Below are positions 9,076-35,201 of a DNA stretch of 64,000 bases, piece by piece. The DNA is from Clostridia bacterium. Its GTDB lineage: Bacteria > Bacillota > Clostridia > TANB77 > UBA1234. The stretch spans positions 1-64,000 of the forward strand of contig JAFYBZ010000041.1 of assembly GCA_017539905.1 (NCBI GenBank), read 5' to 3'. Under the pieces are notes generated by a model. That model was given only the letters and a program-made list of their open reading frames with translations, was not told the DNA's origin and made no database searches. The first letter of the stretch is position 1. Every line of letters begins with the position of its first letter. Position numbers and translations under genes: made by a program.

Positions 9076-9227
9076 AAAAAACCTCGGCACTATTTAAGTG
9101 CCGAGGCATAATTTTATTTTTAAAATCATCAGCCAAAGCACTTAATGCTTTGTCGGTATTAGCACCTAACTTAAATAGGTTGCTGTGGAGTCATAAAGCC
9201 GAATCTCTCGTCCACTCTAGATAATCT
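9076..9227 (-). ncRNA. SAM-I (S-box) riboswitch with intrinsic terminator
   Basis: Read on the minus strand, the leader of metK begins TATCTAGAGTGG, continues with a GGCTTTATGA segment and CAGCAACCT, and closes with AAAGC/GCTTTGGCTGATGA. These are the conserved S-box core elements (kink-turn and SAM-binding core). The aptamer covers about 9124-9227. It is followed by a strong terminator CCTCGGCAC/GTGCCGAGG plus six T (9076-9107). Binding of SAM should stabilise the terminator and switch metK off. No promoter of its own is obvious in the 20 bases after the upstream gene. Confidence 0.92.
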
Positions 9228-26092: not shown

Positions 26093-27751
26093 TTGAGCAA
26101 AGGCGACACTTCTCTGATTCGCAAACTCGTGCCTATTAAATGGATGTTCGATCTATACACGAGTGGCTATGCGAATCAAGTAGAACGAAACAGCAGAAGC
26201 CCCTGCACAAGTCCATTCTTCAGCAATGCATCTGTTCGTTTCAAGTCCGGTACTATTAATACTACTATTCCAACTGGTGAGCCAAATGTACTACGTATCA
26301 ATTTTTCAAGCTTTTGTCCCTGTCAACATGTTTACTTCGAGACTGTTACTTTTACTTTAAGAGAATTCATTACACAGCTTGAAAAAATACTTGATCGTAA
26401 GTCAGATTACATTAGCTTTGATGTTAATGTATCTACCGATTGGCTTAATGCAGAGGATTGTAGTTCATTCCAAAATTGTATGAAGCGTTCTATTTGTAAA
26501 AGTATTAATCAACTTTCTCCTACCAGTTCATCTTTATTCATTAAAGGTTCCGTGACATGCGTTGTCCAGTTCAAACTCAACGAGGTTAAAGAAGCTCTTG
26601 CCGTCTATCACGGCATTGAGGATAATAAAGGAGGTTTTACAATGAAAGGATCTTTCGGCAAACTCTTCTCTGGTATGGAAATGGGAATAAATCGAGATCC
26701 CCGCATCAAGTCGACTCTGACCGGTATCGTTGTTCAGAATCCTGACAACGGTAAGTATTACGCTTTCGATCCCGCAACGCGAACCCGGAAGGATATGCTG
26801 AACCTGAAGCTCGGCAATTTCCCCATCGTCCTGGTCCCGGTAAAGAACCTCACTGTTGGTAAGATGACCAAGCGTGATGGCAAGTATTACTGGGTGCAGA
26901 GCATCAATGATGACAACACCTTCACCGGCGTGAATGCCATGACTGGTGCTGTGGAAACATTCGTCAACAATGACAGCCTGATTCCCGGTTTCAACTTCTA
27001 CACTGAAGTTGTTGCGTTCGACGGCAAGACACTGCTGGATCCGAGCTCCAAACAGAACATGGGCGGCAATGTCCTGGGCGCAATGCTCATGATGCAGATG
27101 ATGAACAGCGACAAGGCCGAGTTCAGTCTGGATGACATCAATGATGACAGCTTCAACGGCCTGGGTATGTTTTTGCCGATGCTTATGGCTTCCAAAGATG
27201 GGAACTTGGGCATTACCAATCCTGACGGCACCCCCAACATCATGATGATGATGATGCTGATGGGTGACGGTGGTGAAGGCGGAATGAATGACTTCATGAA
27301 GTTCTCCCTGCTCTCCAATCTTCTGGGCGGTGGCAACAATGCCAATCCTCTGGGCGACATTATGAGCGGAATTTCTACTGTCGTTCCCGGCATCGCTCCT
27401 GCTGCCGCGGGTGCTGGACACTATGCCTGCACTATATGCGGTAAGGAATTCGATGATCCCGAAGTGCGCTTCTGCACCGAATGCGGTGGAAAGGTTGAAG
27501 CTGCCGGCACTGTATGCCCCAAGTGCGGAGAAGTCCTGAAGGAAGGCGCCAAGTTCTGTCACAAGTGCGGAGCCAAGATCGGAGCCGACGTGTGTAAGGC
27601 GTGTGGCAAGGAAATTCCTGAGGGCGCGAAGTTCTGCCCCTACTGCGGTGAAGATGTGAACGGAAAACCGCCTGCCCCTGCGAAACCTACACGCAGCAAA
27701 AAGACTACTGCCAAGAAGGCTGACGCCGGCGCGGAAGCCGTTCCGAACTGA
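26093..27751 (+). CDS. Multi-zinc-ribbon protein with possible internal start
   Basis: A 552-residue frame from TTG 26093 behind GGAGGG. Residues 1-183 form a cysteine-containing domain of ordinary composition. At 26642 an in-frame ATG follows AAAGGAGG by seven bases, and from there the DNA becomes markedly GC-richer. The second part has a beta-rich domain (GIVVQNPDNGKYYAFDPATR), a Met/Gly-rich middle (MMMMMLMGDGGEGG) and three C-terminal zinc ribbons (CTICG..CTECG, CPKCG..CHKCG, CKACG..CPYCG), ending in a lysine-rich tail. It may be two genes fused in frame, or one gene giving two products. Function unknown. Confidence 0.75.
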   Translation: MSKGDTSLIRKLVPIKWMFDLYTSGYANQVERNSRSPCTSPFFSNASVRFKSGTINTTIPTGEPNVLRINFSSFCPCQHVYFETVTFTLREFITQLEKILDRKSDYISFDVNVSTDWLNAEDCSSFQNCMKRSICKSINQLSPTSSSLFIKGSVTCVVQFKLNEVKEALAVYHGIEDNKGGFTMKGSFGKLFSGMEMGINRDPRIKSTLTGIVVQNPDNGKYYAFDPATRTRKDMLNLKLGNFPIVLVPVKNLTVGKMTKRDGKYYWVQSINDDNTFTGVNAMTGAVETFVNNDSLIPGFNFYTEVVAFDGKTLLDPSSKQNMGGNVLGAMLMMQMMNSDKAEFSLDDINDDSFNGLGMFLPMLMASKDGNLGITNPDGTPNIMMMMMLMGDGGEGGMNDFMKFSLLSNLLGGGNNANPLGDIMSGISTVVPGIAPAAAGAGHYACTICGKEFDDPEVRFCTECGGKVEAAGTVCPKCGEVLKEGAKFCHKCGAKIGADVCKACGKEIPEGAKFCPYCGEDVNGKPPAPAKPTRSKKTTAKKADAGAEAVPN

Positions 27752-27753
27752 CT

Positions 27754-28023
27754 ATGGGCGGCCTCAATTTTAGAGGACGTAAACTCCTAAATGAGCAAGT
27801 CCTTATGAACTGTGAAAGTTGCAAAAAAGTTTTCTCCCGTGATTGTGCATATTGCACAGAATGTGGCGCAAAGCTTAAAGCTATGAAAACTCAAATTTTT
27901 GCAAACTACAGCAAAAGAGGATTAACTTCATTTAGCTACGTTCTCCCTAATGGTGTTACTATCAACTCAAAAAGAGGCATGACTATGTCACTGGGAAACG
28001 GTATCTCCTATTCAACAAAATAA
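27754..28023 (+). CDS. Small zinc-ribbon protein
   Basis: The frame opens two bases after the previous stop. The better-supported product starts at ATG 27805 (MNCESCKKVFSRDCAYCTEC), a four-cysteine ribbon followed by about 50 residues. The weak AGAGGA lies a little far upstream. Its composition is AT-rich, unlike the end of the preceding gene. Cotranscribed with it and ended by the terminator at 28029. Confidence 0.65.
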   Translation: MGGLNFRGRKLLNEQVLMNCESCKKVFSRDCAYCTECGAKLKAMKTQIFANYSKRGLTSFSYVLPNGVTINSKRGMTMSLGNGISYSTK

Positions 28024-28028
28024 AAAAT

Positions 28029-28063
28029 TACCGCTATGCAAATATTTGCATAGCGGTATTTTT
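28029..28063. terminator. Bidirectional terminator between convergent operons
   Basis: A 30-base near-perfect palindrome, arms TACCGCTATGCAAA and TTTGCATAGCGGTA, with T runs on both sides. Confidence 0.9.
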
Positions 28064-28073
28064 ATGTTTAAAT

Positions 28074-29309
28074 TTAAAATTCTTCAAATTCATCTCTTGT
28101 CAAACCAAATGTTCCAGAAAAACCATTAATCATCGGAATTGCGTTTTTAAAATATGTTTTTGCTTTACTAATAAAATCACTTGCATGATATTTTGTAATG
28201 CCTTCTGAACTTCCAATTCCAAATGGTTCATCAAGTTGGTCAAGACAAGTAAAACCAATATTAATAGTAGAAGGAATACTTATATTTTTTAAGTCTCTAT
28301 AGATTCTTCTTGTGAGTTCATCAAAATCAATATATGCAAATCGCAAATCACCTTGATATTTATTTTTTATATTAGTTTTATCTTCAACATTTCTATAAGG
28401 TGCCATGTCAACTTCATGACTAAGTGGCCCCATACCATGTCTTGTTGCATATGGACGACTAATATAATAAATACCTGGTCTACTACCTTTGTAATTTGCA
28501 TTTTTCAAAATTTTCATTGCATTTGTAACACCAGTAGTTGAAGGTGTAAGAAAATCTACACTGCAATCAGGATTATTCTCGTCGAGTCCAAGTCCTTGCG
28601 CACCTTCAAACACCAAGTTATCATAGCAATCAATAATTGAATCACTTCTTACAGTTACAAAAGATAAAAATTCTTCTGCATAGAATAAGAGCATATCTAA
28701 TGTTTCTTCACTAGAAATCATAGAACTAAAGTCTTCAGAAAGATTTTTCAGTTCTGAAAGGCTGATTCCATATTCTTCTTTCAATCTTTTAGGAACATAT
28801 TCATCTCTTATCTTTTTCAATTTTTCTTTGAGACTATCACGAAACACAAGATCTCTAACTGTAATTTTATACTGCGGGTCTTTTGTTCTTTCTACAGTCT
28901 CCCAAATTCCCATTCCACAACTTCCATGACGGTCTTTACTACGGTATTCTTCCACTGCTTGATTAATATATACATCATATAAAGTTGTCACAGGAGAATT
29001 TAAATTGACAAAAACAGCTGGATTAATTCCGAAATCTTTTTTAAATTCTGCTTTCTCAATAACAAGTTCAACTGGATTAATTAAGAAATCAGAACCAAGA
29101 TATGTTGCAGCACCTGTAAAAGTACCTGCTCCTAAATGTCTAAAAACATGTCTTCTTCCATCAGGAGTAACTACTGTATGTGCTGCTTGCGGTCCACCAT
29201 TAAACCGAATGTTAAGTGTCTTAGGTTTATTGCAAAGAATATCTGTATAATGTCCTTTACCTTCATCACCAAGACCAGCACCAATTACAATAGAGCAAGA
29301 TTTTGCCAT
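28074..29309 (-). CDS. Divergent adenylosuccinate synthetase-like GTPase
   Basis: The 411-residue protein keeps PurA landmarks: GDEGKG (residues 14-19, with the catalytic Asp15), RFNGGPQAAHTV (His44), a FEGAQGLGLD loop, and a TRHGMGP segment. However the canonical WGDEGKGK, GGHNAGHT and GTTGRGIGP segments differ (LGDEGKGH, GGPQAAHT, HGSCGMGIW). PurA joins IMP and aspartate with GTP; phage PurZ relatives use dGMP. This one is probably not the housekeeping enzyme and may act on a different nucleotide or amino acid. Start ATG behind GAAAGGAGG. Last gene of the kinase-like/VWA run. Confidence 0.8.
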   Translation of the reverse strand: MAKSCSIVIGAGLGDEGKGHYTDILCNKPKTLNIRFNGGPQAAHTVVTPDGRRHVFRHLGAGTFTGAATYLGSDFLINPVELVIEKAEFKKDFGINPAVFVNLNSPVTTLYDVYINQAVEEYRSKDRHGSCGMGIWETVERTKDPQYKITVRDLVFRDSLKEKLKKIRDEYVPKRLKEEYGISLSELKNLSEDFSSMISSEETLDMLLFYAEEFLSFVTVRSDSIIDCYDNLVFEGAQGLGLDENNPDCSVDFLTPSTTGVTNAMKILKNANYKGSRPGIYYISRPYATRHGMGPLSHEVDMAPYRNVEDKTNIKNKYQGDLRFAYIDFDELTRRIYRDLKNISIPSTINIGFTCLDQLDEPFGIGSSEGITKYHASDFISKAKTYFKNAIPMINGFSGTFGLTRDEFEEF

Positions 29310-29343
29310 TTCTTAAATCCTCCTTTCTCGGAGAAATCAAAAA

Positions 29344-29380
29344 GAAGAATAAAAGGAGATGGCTAAGCTTAGCCATCTCC
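29344..29380 (-). terminator. Terminator between VWA gene and PurA-like gene
   Basis: A 26-base perfect palindrome with arms GGAGATGGCTAAG and CTTAGCCATCTCC, followed by TTTTATTC on the minus strand. It should reduce read-through into the PurA-like gene, which has no visible promoter of its own. Confidence 0.75.
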
Positions 29381-29398
29381 TCTTTGGTAAAAATGTGA

Positions 29399-30352
29399 TC
29401 AAATGAATTCCACGCCGGCGGCCTTGCCACTCTTGATAGCTTCTCCATCTTTGTAGATTTCGAATCCTTTGAATGCCTGGCGAATAACTTTTTTCGCCCT
29501 CGCATCTTCAATCATGTCGAAGACTTCGTCACGATCGAATCCATTCTGCAGTTTAAGGATTGTAGCCAAAGCTTCGGCCACATACCGATGATCCTCCAGG
29601 CTGATAACATGCGTGCCCAGATATTTTCTCCATGTTTCCGGAACACGATCGCTTCCATATCCATCCTCGGGAAGAATAATATGGAACAGATTCCATTTTT
29701 CCAGAGCCATGTCTCTGAGCTCAGTCGTCTTGTAGGACCGTTCGATACTCTCATTCCGGCCGAAGATTTTCTTCGCAGTAGAAGTATTAATTCCATCATG
29801 CGGTTTGTCATCTCCGACCGAAATATAGATTCCTTTTTCGCCCCTCTTGTTGAAGCAATCGATCTTGGTATGCTTTGCCAGGAAATACCACGGAATCTCA
29901 TAGCTTTCGCCATCGTTTCCTCCACCGCCGCCTTCAAGATAGAAAAGGCGCAGTTGATCGAGCATACGTGTGTCTGCCTCAAACTGGGAAACCTCCAGCG
30001 GAGCGTCGTCACAATACGCATCGCCAATTGCGGCGAAGAGAATGTGCGGATCATATCCTAATGCGCCCCCCTGAATCATCTTGATAAACCTGGGGAATCC
30101 TTCCTGGATGAAAGAGAACGGAATCCGTCCCATGGAGCCGGTGTCGTCGAATCCGATTGCTACAGCTCTGGAATTCGGGCTGTCAACAGAATCGCAGGAT
30201 TCTCTGAAGCCATTCTTGAGCTTGGCCGGATCGAGAAGGTCATTCAACGAACTTGATTTGAATACCTCTCTTGCACTGGTTGCGCGGGTAATGCTCCTGT
30301 TAGCCTGATAATACGAGCTAACATGTTCGGATGTGGTAGGACTGCCTCCCAT
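29399..30352 (-). CDS. von Willebrand factor A domain protein
   Basis: The 317-residue soluble protein shows a MIDAS: GFDDTGSMG (Asp69, Thr71, Ser73), a glycine-rich loop GGGGGNDGESYE for the second metal ligand, and ISVGDDKPHD for the third. The VWA domain fills most of the chain; an N-terminal Ser-rich arm of about 60 residues precedes it. Intracellular VWA proteins usually scaffold ATPase, kinase or chelatase complexes. Composition is GC-rich, with CGG codons. AAGGAGG is eight bases before the ATG. It follows the kinase-like gene by 23 bases. Confidence 0.88.
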   Translation of the reverse strand: MGGSPTTSEHVSSYYQANRSITRATSAREVFKSSSLNDLLDPAKLKNGFRESCDSVDSPNSRAVAIGFDDTGSMGRIPFSFIQEGFPRFIKMIQGGALGYDPHILFAAIGDAYCDDAPLEVSQFEADTRMLDQLRLFYLEGGGGGNDGESYEIPWYFLAKHTKIDCFNKRGEKGIYISVGDDKPHDGINTSTAKKIFGRNESIERSYKTTELRDMALEKWNLFHIILPEDGYGSDRVPETWRKYLGTHVISLEDHRYVAEALATILKLQNGFDRDEVFDMIEDARAKKVIRQAFKGFEIYKDGEAIKSGKAAGVEFI

Positions 30353-30375
30353 TTGTCATGCCTCCTTATGATGTT

Positions 30376-31452
30376 TTATATAGAAACGTCGATATCGACG
30401 AATCTAGCTTTACCGAAAACCTCTTTGCAGATTCTTTCAAATTCAGAATATTCTTCATATGCATTCTTTTCGCAAGTAGTTCTGTTGAACCATTCACAAA
30501 GCATGCTATGAACACCATACAAATTTTTTCCGGTTACATCGCCTAAGAGTTCTCTTGCAACCTTTTTAATAGAAAGCATATCAACTTCGAAAGAAGAGTA
30601 ACGAGTTTTTTCAACACAATCTGGTATAACATCTCTTATCTCTCTCGGTAATACCGTAATCTTTTCGTCCTTACTCGTAGTGAAATACCATCCACCATAA
30701 AGTCCAACGATACGAATATCATTTACCGAATATTTTTCACCCGGCATAACTTCATTACCTGGAGAGAAATAAATATTATCAATACAAATTGCATTATGAG
30801 TCATACCTGCAACATCAATCCAACATGCATAACTATAGAGTCGCTTGATGATAGATATGACATGTTTTACGTTCATTCTTCCATCAAAGAAATTAAGAAC
30901 TTCTCTCAATGGATAAATCTTGCACGGTTTCTTTAACAGTAACACATACTTTGATTTATCCTGTGTCTTGAAGGATTTAACAATTTGTGGAATCGAATAC
31001 TGAAAATCTTTCCAATTGGGCATTTCGCTTTCCCAAAAAGAAATGAATTCCCTAACTTTATCTATGTAGTTAGAAAACAATCCTTTTTCTTCAAGTGCTG
31101 AGTCAACAACCATCAAAATTTCAGAGTCATTGATATATGTATCACATACTCTCTGATTGAAATGTTCATCATACTCGAACCGAATTTTTTCTCCAGTTCT
31201 TGAATACAACAATACAGTAGAATTATTATCAGTAGAACTTTTTCCTTCAGAGCTCAAAACTTCTTTGGCTTTTTTCAAAAGAAATTTCAGCTGCTGAGAT
31301 GTGACAAAATTTCGAATCTCATGAAATTGTTGATCAGGTTTGTACTGTTCACAGTAAGCATCGTATTCTTCTTGTAAAGTATTTGGGTTCATAGAAAAGA
31401 TTTCCTCGGGCCGGTTAGCAGCCATGATTTCTTGATAGCTCCTAAGCCTCAT
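30376..31452 (-). CDS. Pseudokinase-like protein
   Basis: The 358-residue protein has a C-terminal lobe reminiscent of a protein kinase: THNAICIDNIYF sits where HxDxxxxN would be, and RIVGLYGGWYF where DFG is expected. The catalytic aspartates are not visible, so it may be a pseudokinase. The N-terminal 150 residues are helical. Start ATG 31452 behind AAAAGGAGG. First gene of the operon with the VWA and PurA-like genes. The kinase assignment is a pattern judgement. Confidence 0.6.
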   Translation of the reverse strand: MRLRSYQEIMAANRPEEIFSMNPNTLQEEYDAYCEQYKPDQQFHEIRNFVTSQQLKFLLKKAKEVLSSEGKSSTDNNSTVLLYSRTGEKIRFEYDEHFNQRVCDTYINDSEILMVVDSALEEKGLFSNYIDKVREFISFWESEMPNWKDFQYSIPQIVKSFKTQDKSKYVLLLKKPCKIYPLREVLNFFDGRMNVKHVISIIKRLYSYACWIDVAGMTHNAICIDNIYFSPGNEVMPGEKYSVNDIRIVGLYGGWYFTTSKDEKITVLPREIRDVIPDCVEKTRYSSFEVDMLSIKKVARELLGDVTGKNLYGVHSMLCEWFNRTTCEKNAYEEYSEFERICKEVFGKARFVDIDVSI

Positions 31453-31522
31453 ACAGTATCCTCCTTTTACTTTTAAAATTGTACACAATTTAGAGAAACA
31501 ATACTTTATTTATACAGGTTGT

Positions 31523-31551
31523 AATTTATCACACATAATGCAAATTGTCAA
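31523..31551 (-). promoter_or_regulatory. Promoter of the kinase-like/VWA operon
   Basis: -35 TTGACA (31546-31551), 17 bases, -10 TAAATT (31523-31528) preceded by TGA. The spacer contains TTATGT. Confidence 0.7.
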
Positions 31552-31743: not shown

Positions 31744-31819
31744 TGGAGCCACCAACGGGAGTCGGACCCGTGACCTCATCCTTACCAAGGATGCACTCTG
31801 CCAGCTGAGCTATGGTGGC
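31744..31819 (-). tRNA. tRNA-Thr (anticodon GGT)
   Basis: 76 bases read on the minus strand. Acceptor GCCACCA/TGGTGGC, D-arm AGCTCAGCTGGCAGAGT, anticodon loop TTGGTAA (GGT), T-arm ACGGG/CCCGT, and encoded 3' TCCA. Confidence 0.97.
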
Positions 31820-34986: not shown

Positions 34987-35007
34987 GGTTAATTTGTTCA
35001 TTAAAAG

Positions 35008-35194
35008 CCCCCACAATGGCCGTTTACTTAAGTGAATTTAAGAGCCTGCTCTCGCAGGTGGGTGTTTTCATTCACGCTCCTGGGCTTCTTACTACGATAA
35101 TTGGTAAGCTTGCACGCCACGCAAATATAGTAAACTCCCAATTCTTAGACTGTTGGTTCTAAATAAAACTTAAGCGACTCGTACCTTGTAGGGT
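35008..35194 (-). ncRNA. Stand-alone structured RNA, about 190 nt (raiA-motif or 6S-class candidate)
   Basis: On the minus strand it follows a consensus promoter. Its ends pair: CCCTACAAGG (35184-35193) with CCATTGTGGGG (35009-35019), ten pairs with one bulge. Inside are GTTTAC/GTAAAC, CTTAC/GTAAG, GTGAAT/ATTCAC and the apical CCTGC/GCAGG. No reading frame is present. Closed ends, about 190 nt and a strong own promoter fit an abundant housekeeping RNA such as 6S or the raiA motif RNA. The multi-branched fold argues somewhat for the latter. It is not SRP RNA or tmRNA. Confidence 0.65.
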
Positions 35195-35201
35195 TAATTA
35201 A

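Follow-up and report, generated by a model that had tools for sequence, protein, structure and literature searches.

A phage-derived gene module with a third type of adenylosuccinate synthetase-like enzyme in a Clostridia bacterium

What role could unite an adenylosuccinate synthetase-like enzyme, a von Willebrand factor A (VWA) protein, a kinase-like protein and two zinc-ribbon proteins, and from where was such a set obtained? This question is raised by a five-gene locus within the first 64,000 nucleotides of contig JAFYBZ010000041.1 of a Clostridia bacterium (assembly GCA_017539905.1); the whole stretch is referred to as the window. A first-pass annotation made from the sequence had described five genes in two convergent operons, and the open reading frames were indeed found in this arrangement: the genes of a triple-ribbon protein (ZnR1) and a small ribbon protein (ZnR2) on the plus strand face those of the kinase-like protein (KIN), the VWA protein and the PurA-like enzyme on the minus strand, with a hairpin between the operons. 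The locus is flanked by RNase J on one side and tRNA-Thr on the other. Its contig, of 112 kb, also bears EF-Tu and is part of a 1.7 Mb genome (99% complete, 9% contamination) of a gut-type, AT-rich lineage that appears Bacillota-like from its gene content. As far as sequence comparison can tell, it is a domesticated, phage-derived accessory module that displays a conserved gene set, an exchangeable partner, an enzyme with retained nucleotide-activation residues and a changed amine site, and phage ancestry.

The roles of the catalytic and binding residues of PurA are established for the Escherichia coli enzyme. An alignment of 164 relatives of the PurA-like protein to E. coli PurA, with the reference sequence verified against PDB 1ade/1kjx, demonstrated that Asp13, Lys16, His41, Gln224 and Thr239 are retained, the first three without exception. 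The shared fold, the GDEGKG loop that holds Asp13 and Lys16, and the TRxGxGP segment likewise connect the protein to canonical PurA. It differs from the latter at Asn38 (Gln in 98%), Val273 (His in 100%) and Lys331 (Cys or His), and position 333 is Asp, as in PurA, or Asn. In addition, Thr300, Thr301, Arg303 and Arg305 are lost, position 303 being variable and 305 hydrophobic, and an N-x(5)-Q-G-x(2)-R motif replaces the arginines of the aspartate loop.

In an IQ-TREE phylogeny the enzymes of the bacterial five-gene type (type A), of a second bacterial operon type (type B, see below) and of the phage copies were placed together beyond a 100/99 branch, separate from canonical PurA (99/98) and PurZ (100/100). 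On this tree, the PurA-like proteins constitute a third clade of PF00709, apart from both PurA and PurZ, with type A nested among the phage sequences. The host genome contains only two PF00709 genes, the type A gene of the window and a type B gene, and neither canonical purA nor purB was found in it. As the host lacks canonical PurA as well as PurB, the window enzyme does not serve housekeeping purine synthesis, in agreement with the first-pass description of a divergent adenylosuccinate synthetase. Among 57 relatives, the other five VWA-bearing genomes were also without purB and canonical purA, and in all six carriers adenosine monophosphate (AMP) can seemingly not be made from inosine monophosphate (IMP). 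The lack of purB, seen in 43 of the 57 relatives, was not significantly correlated with the module and is used here as a biochemical argument only.

The gene next to that of the enzyme encodes a VWA protein. Its MIDAS metal-binding motif is intact, as had been noted from the window alone, and is conserved at about 99% across the family (D68, T70, S72, D109 and D180 in the numbering of the homolog from genome G023, each kept at 99% or more). An N-terminal Met1-Gly2 start is nearly invariant (M1 in 94% and G2 in 97% of 134 sequences). A Pfam search with the window protein gave no meaningful match, and the VWA profile retrieved nothing from the PDB sequences. In bacteria the gene is rare: within the order, 13 of 287 genomes have it, and an even draw of 398 genomes from the phylum contained a single carrier, the window's own.

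Searches of 50,697 phage records by tblastn identified the VWA protein in 207 (188 Mycobacterium, 10 Rhizobium and 6 Vibrio phages) and the PurA-like protein in 221 (189, 10 and 6, respectively). Scans of IMG/VR returned 157 loci, 115 of them nonredundant and with VWA; as each seed contributed only its 80 best matches, these counts are not a census. A PurA-like gene was present at 111 of the 115 loci, in all but one of the 111 in the order VWA-PurA on one strand, the two genes being a median of 20 bp apart. The window enzyme also has VWA directly upstream and belongs to the module clade. The gene ahead of VWA was KIN at 43 viral loci, a Met-rich barrel protein (the MET family) at 30 and a small helical protein at 10; none was detected at 32, and two never occurred together. 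The VWA-PurA pair was further found in Rhizobium phage Y65 and Vibrio phage Va1, and plasmid-borne KIN-VWA-PurA operons occur in Acetobacter, Allorhizobium and Rhodococcus. The Allorhizobium operon is followed by genes for an AAA ATPase, DUF5682 and DUF4132 (L182, 6461-11017).

The kinase-like protein is, by its motifs, a pseudokinase. In nearly all of 55 family members the aspartates of HRD and DFG are gone, as the first-pass annotation had observed for the window copy, with HN[GA] typically at the HRD site and GGW[WFY] in place of DFG. The family combines a J-domain with the pseudokinase: Pfam DnaJ was recognized in 29 of 47 members and the HPD motif is present in most of the 55. The window copy has a decayed J-like N-terminus in which KPD replaces HPD, and a Pfam search with it yielded no meaningful match. 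Its AlphaFold2 model (pLDDT 90) was assigned by Foldseek against the PDB to protein kinases, with a DnaJ-PKA fusion at rank 3. Copies from Lachnospiraceae and Ruminococcus carry a zinc ribbon where the J-domain would be.

Profile searches confirmed three zinc ribbons in ZnR1 (Zn_Ribbon/DZR, to 2e-15) and one in ZnR2. ZnR1, which has homologs in relatives, consists of an N-terminal domain (26093-26641), a small beta-barrel with Met-rich helices (26642 to about 27400) and the ribbons. With the ribbons left out, its barrel and Met-rich part aligned to the phage MET family, which is absent from Pfam (hhalign 96.8%, E 2e-10); by this comparison, bacterial ZnR1 is the phage Met-rich protein with an extra N-terminal domain and three ribbons added. 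At the junction of the N-terminal domain and the Met-rich part, a GGAGG precedes an in-frame ATG (26632-26644, ATG at 26642), and six relatives share GGAGG-N-ATG at the identical place of their main ZnR1 gene; it probably represents either a second translation start, giving two nested proteins, or the scar of an old gene fusion. The AlphaFold2 model of ZnR1 (pLDDT 71) has two confident, mostly beta regions and poorly predicted Met-rich helices, and its fold gave nothing significant against the PDB, the weak matches being small barrels of HEX-1/eIF5A type (probability 0.96, E 0.1). Rows from phage and plasmid records had been removed from the alignments used for structure prediction. ZnR2 is confined to the bacterial five-gene type.

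A survey for co-occurrence, as proposed in the first-pass annotation, revealed that the five genes recur together in relatives from the same order. All five are present in genomes G023, G055, G009 and G225, where the operons converge, in G108, where they diverge, and in G065, which has further copies of ZnR1; in G253 four were found, on a contig that stops before ZnR2. In G065 (L203, 329-3520 and 7377-7889), the additional ZnR1 copies are partly broken and a 170-aa fragment of a KIN N-terminus is encoded separately. The flanks of the five-gene loci vary among the relatives, and the RNase J/tRNA-Thr site is empty of the module in the sister genomes G003 and G005; thus, the gene set is conserved and its position is not. 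Metagenome-assembled genomes of Lachnospiraceae, Ruminococcus and Roseburia carry KIN-VWA-PurA operons, and no fusions among the four gene families were seen in the loci examined. The host of the window also possesses the type B operon (L022, about 159.6-164.7 kb of contig C38), which encodes a pyruvate-kinase-like barrel, a 520-aa PurA-like protein, a uridine-kinase-like protein, a J-domain pseudokinase and a VWA protein, and which was also found in G012, G115 and G227 (L021, L205, L206). Its PurA-like, pseudokinase and VWA proteins are homologous to those of the window, whereas the barrel and the P-loop uridine-kinase-like protein are additional and no zinc-ribbon or Met-rich gene is present.

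Since type A nests inside the phage diversity and the sister genomes lack the module at this site, the locus was acquired by transfer. Transfer had already been proposed from composition, and that argument holds by half: the G+C content at third codon positions (GC3) is high in ZnR1 (0.64) and VWA (0.52), whereas the PurA-like gene (0.15) is host-like relative to a window mean of 0.19. The parts of the window with raised GC and GC3 are 26642-27751 in ZnR1 and 29399-30352, the VWA gene, and at every bacterial locus examined (including L016, L017, L018 and L201-L203) ZnR1 and VWA exceed the PurA-like and kinase-like genes in both measures. Codon adaptation to high expression was ruled out as the cause of the G+C-rich VWA and ZnR1 genes, as their codon adaptation indices, with the host's own EF-Tu as reference, were 0.28 and 0.23 compared to a mean of 0.52 for 44 window genes (sd 0.09). 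An insertion targeted to tRNA-Thr was dropped, as neither an integrase nor an att-like repeat was found at the locus. Two phage-like contigs in a genome of the same genus (L019 and L020; G001 contigs C119 and C51) bear VWA, PurA-like and Met-rich genes together with NUDIX, RNA-ligase-like or TROVE-like genes, and phage contigs of this kind are a plausible donor type.

Genes linked to nicotinamide adenine dinucleotide (NAD), i.e., NMNAT-NUDIX, NrtR, NadR-like, NAMPT and NADAR, were located near 24 of 129 module loci, three bacterial lineages included, with NADAR assigned from a reading of the sequence and not by family search. In G225 an NMNAT-NUDIX-kinase protein is encoded near the five-gene set, NrtR adjoins the Roseburia and Allorhizobium operons, and 5 of 22 phage loci retrieved with NAMPT as seed carry VWA and PurA. 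TROVE/Ro60, SPFH, RNA ligase, metallophosphoesterase, HAD and R2K ATP-grasp genes also recurred. TROVE/Ro60-like proteins lie within a few kb of the module at eight phage-type loci (L005, 12354-13862; L049, 1793-3247; and six more), and an R2K-clade ATP-grasp gene is near it at five phage loci (L065, L093, L095, L101, L102), with a HAD gene at each of the five.

As a whole, the locus is best explained, tentatively and at not quite an even chance, by a PurA-like ligase that would join a 6-oxopurine nucleotide to an amine other than aspartate, together with VWA and a chaperone-like recruiter. The enzyme may use a nucleoside triphosphate to phosphorylate, and thereby activate, an IMP-type purine nucleotide at its 6-oxo group, a step that is probably retained because Asp13, Lys16, His41, Gln224 and Thr239 are kept. 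The activated nucleotide would then be joined to an amine that is probably not free aspartate, as N-x(5)-Q-G-x(2)-R stands in for the aspartate-loop arginines. VWA, a putative obligate partner of the enzyme, would bind a metal-dependent ligand through its MIDAS, and the exchangeable third protein may recruit to the pair either Hsp70, where it has a J-domain, or hydrophobic client segments, where it is the Met-rich protein. The likely setting would be nucleotide or NAD stress in phage infection; in the bacterium, where the five-gene form has retained pseudokinase and Met-rich protein alike and gained zinc ribbons, the module may provide stress tolerance or serve competition between phages. A more specific version, in which the purine nucleotide is coupled through C6 to a protein amine, possibly the exposed, conserved N-terminal glycine of VWA, and the nucleotide-protein conjugate steers chaperones or host factors, appears improbable. 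Several points weigh against the proposed ligase and recruiter. Substrate, product and partner of the enzyme are all predictions from sequence; the loop alignment contains a one-residue gap, and Arg323 might still bind a carboxylate. A third partner was not seen at 32 phage loci, and recruitment of Hsp70 cannot be general, as the window KIN has lost HPD. Finally, the NAD association comes without a background rate, as the control scan gave just 7 loci and was dropped.

It is possible, if rather doubtful, that the module instead makes or removes an NAD- or inosine-linked nucleotide metabolite as phage counter-defence, e.g., by rebuilding nucleotide pools or by consuming inosine nucleotides from ATP-deaminating immunity, and that the other proteins merely regulate the enzyme. 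The NAD-type neighbours, including the NMNAT-NUDIX-kinase of G225 and the pairs at NAMPT-seeded loci, and the retained IMP-site residues agree with this, and NAD+ rebuilding is a known counter-defence of phages (PMC12774641). However, the missing background rate limits this argument as well, the conservation of VWA together with the enzyme is tighter than a purely regulatory role would demand, and the core metabolism of the bacterial carriers lacks PurB. A bacterial defence or stress system akin to the Ter triad, as suggested in the first-pass annotation, is unlikely. Like TerY-P systems, the module combines a VWA protein and a kinase fold, accompanied in some copies by nearby biosynthetic genes, as in the type B operon, and R2K ATP-grasp genes occur at the five phage loci, but neither PP2C nor TerB, TerC or TerD was found at the locus or in the neighbouring open reading frames examined. 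No Pfam VWA model and no Ter model of Pfam or NCBIfam matched, a J-domain pseudokinase takes the place of an active Ser/Thr kinase, and the majority of copies were found in phages rather than hosts. Among the component models of PADLOC 2.0 no defence system was matched; the type B kinase alone hit generic kinase models.

The PurZ-like activity that had also been considered, i.e., nucleotide synthesis for DNA modification by way of 2-aminoadenine nucleotides, is very improbable. Both PurZ/PurZ0 and the module enzymes are phage-borne PF00709 members, phrog_1211 is labelled '2-aminooxy adenylosuccinate synthetase', and the NCBIfam PurZ model matched weakly (6e-7). However, PurZ carries Ser at the position of the catalytic Asp13 (Ser or Gly in archaea; PMC12884076), which is Asp in all 164 relatives, and PurZ occupies its own clade and other phages. 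In addition, the module also occurs in bacterial chromosomes, and among its clustered neighbours no Z-pathway gene (DpoZ, DatZ or MazZ) was recognized. Ordinary purine biosynthesis by a divergent PurA converting IMP to adenylosuccinate is barely credible: the PF00709 match lies above the cut-off, but the aspartate loop is lost, the gene is linked to VWA, and purB is absent from the host and the five other carriers.

A closely similar arrangement is that of Bixzunavirus (mycobacteriophage cluster C1), where genes 267-270 of, e.g., Dandelion encode a homologous J-domain kinase-like protein, VWA and PurA-like enzyme in the same order. It differs by an 88-aa gene, belonging to a separate family, between VWA and the PurA-like gene; no adjoining zinc-ribbon or Met-rich gene was seen, and the genes have been annotated singly. 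No description of the gene combination was found in the full-text literature searched, subscription papers and preprints aside, and a survey of jumbo phages mentions neither adenylosuccinate nor PurA (PMC7824862). The module is apparently undescribed.

The features of the locus are compiled in Table 1. The hairpin in the VWA/PurA-like intergenic region may lower expression of the PurA-like gene. The window also encodes a 6S RNA (35004-35197, minus strand) and carries a SAM riboswitch (9123-9227, minus strand), both scoring well over the Rfam gathering cut-offs.

Table 1. Position and supporting evidence of the features at the five-gene locus (window coordinates).
Feature	Position	Strand	Evidence or remark
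ZnR1	26093-27751	+	TTG start preceded by AGGAGGG
ZnR2	27754-28023	+	89 aa, one zinc ribbon
Bidirectional terminator-like hairpin	28018-28069	.	Strong; separates the two convergent operons
PurA-like enzyme	28074-29309	-	PF00709 4.7e-32; phrog_1211 3.6e-48; active site; tree
Terminator-like hairpin, VWA/PurA-like intergenic region	29351-29384	-	See text
VWA protein	29399-30352	-	phrog_2971 1e-46; MIDAS D69-x-T-G-S73 / D111 / D181
Kinase-like protein (KIN)	30376-31452	-	ATG at 31452 behind AGGAGG; better start than TTG at 31488
tRNA-Thr(GGT), flanking the locus	31744-31819	-	No integrase or att-like repeat found

The module is present in hundreds of large phage genomes and in scattered bacteria, with its genes labelled as hypothetical or mislabelled as PurZ-like or purine synthesis. 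In a survey of 767 viral PF00709 sequences, 251 were assigned to PurA and 151 to PurZ (PMC12884076), which by our subtraction leaves 365 outside both, and the module clade probably accounts for many of these. The module defines a third PF00709 clade with an altered amine site, a VWA family invisible to Pfam, a Met-rich phage family and an exchangeable J-domain pseudokinase. If its enzyme did form a C6-linked nucleotide-protein conjugate, this would be a previously unknown kind of conjugate.

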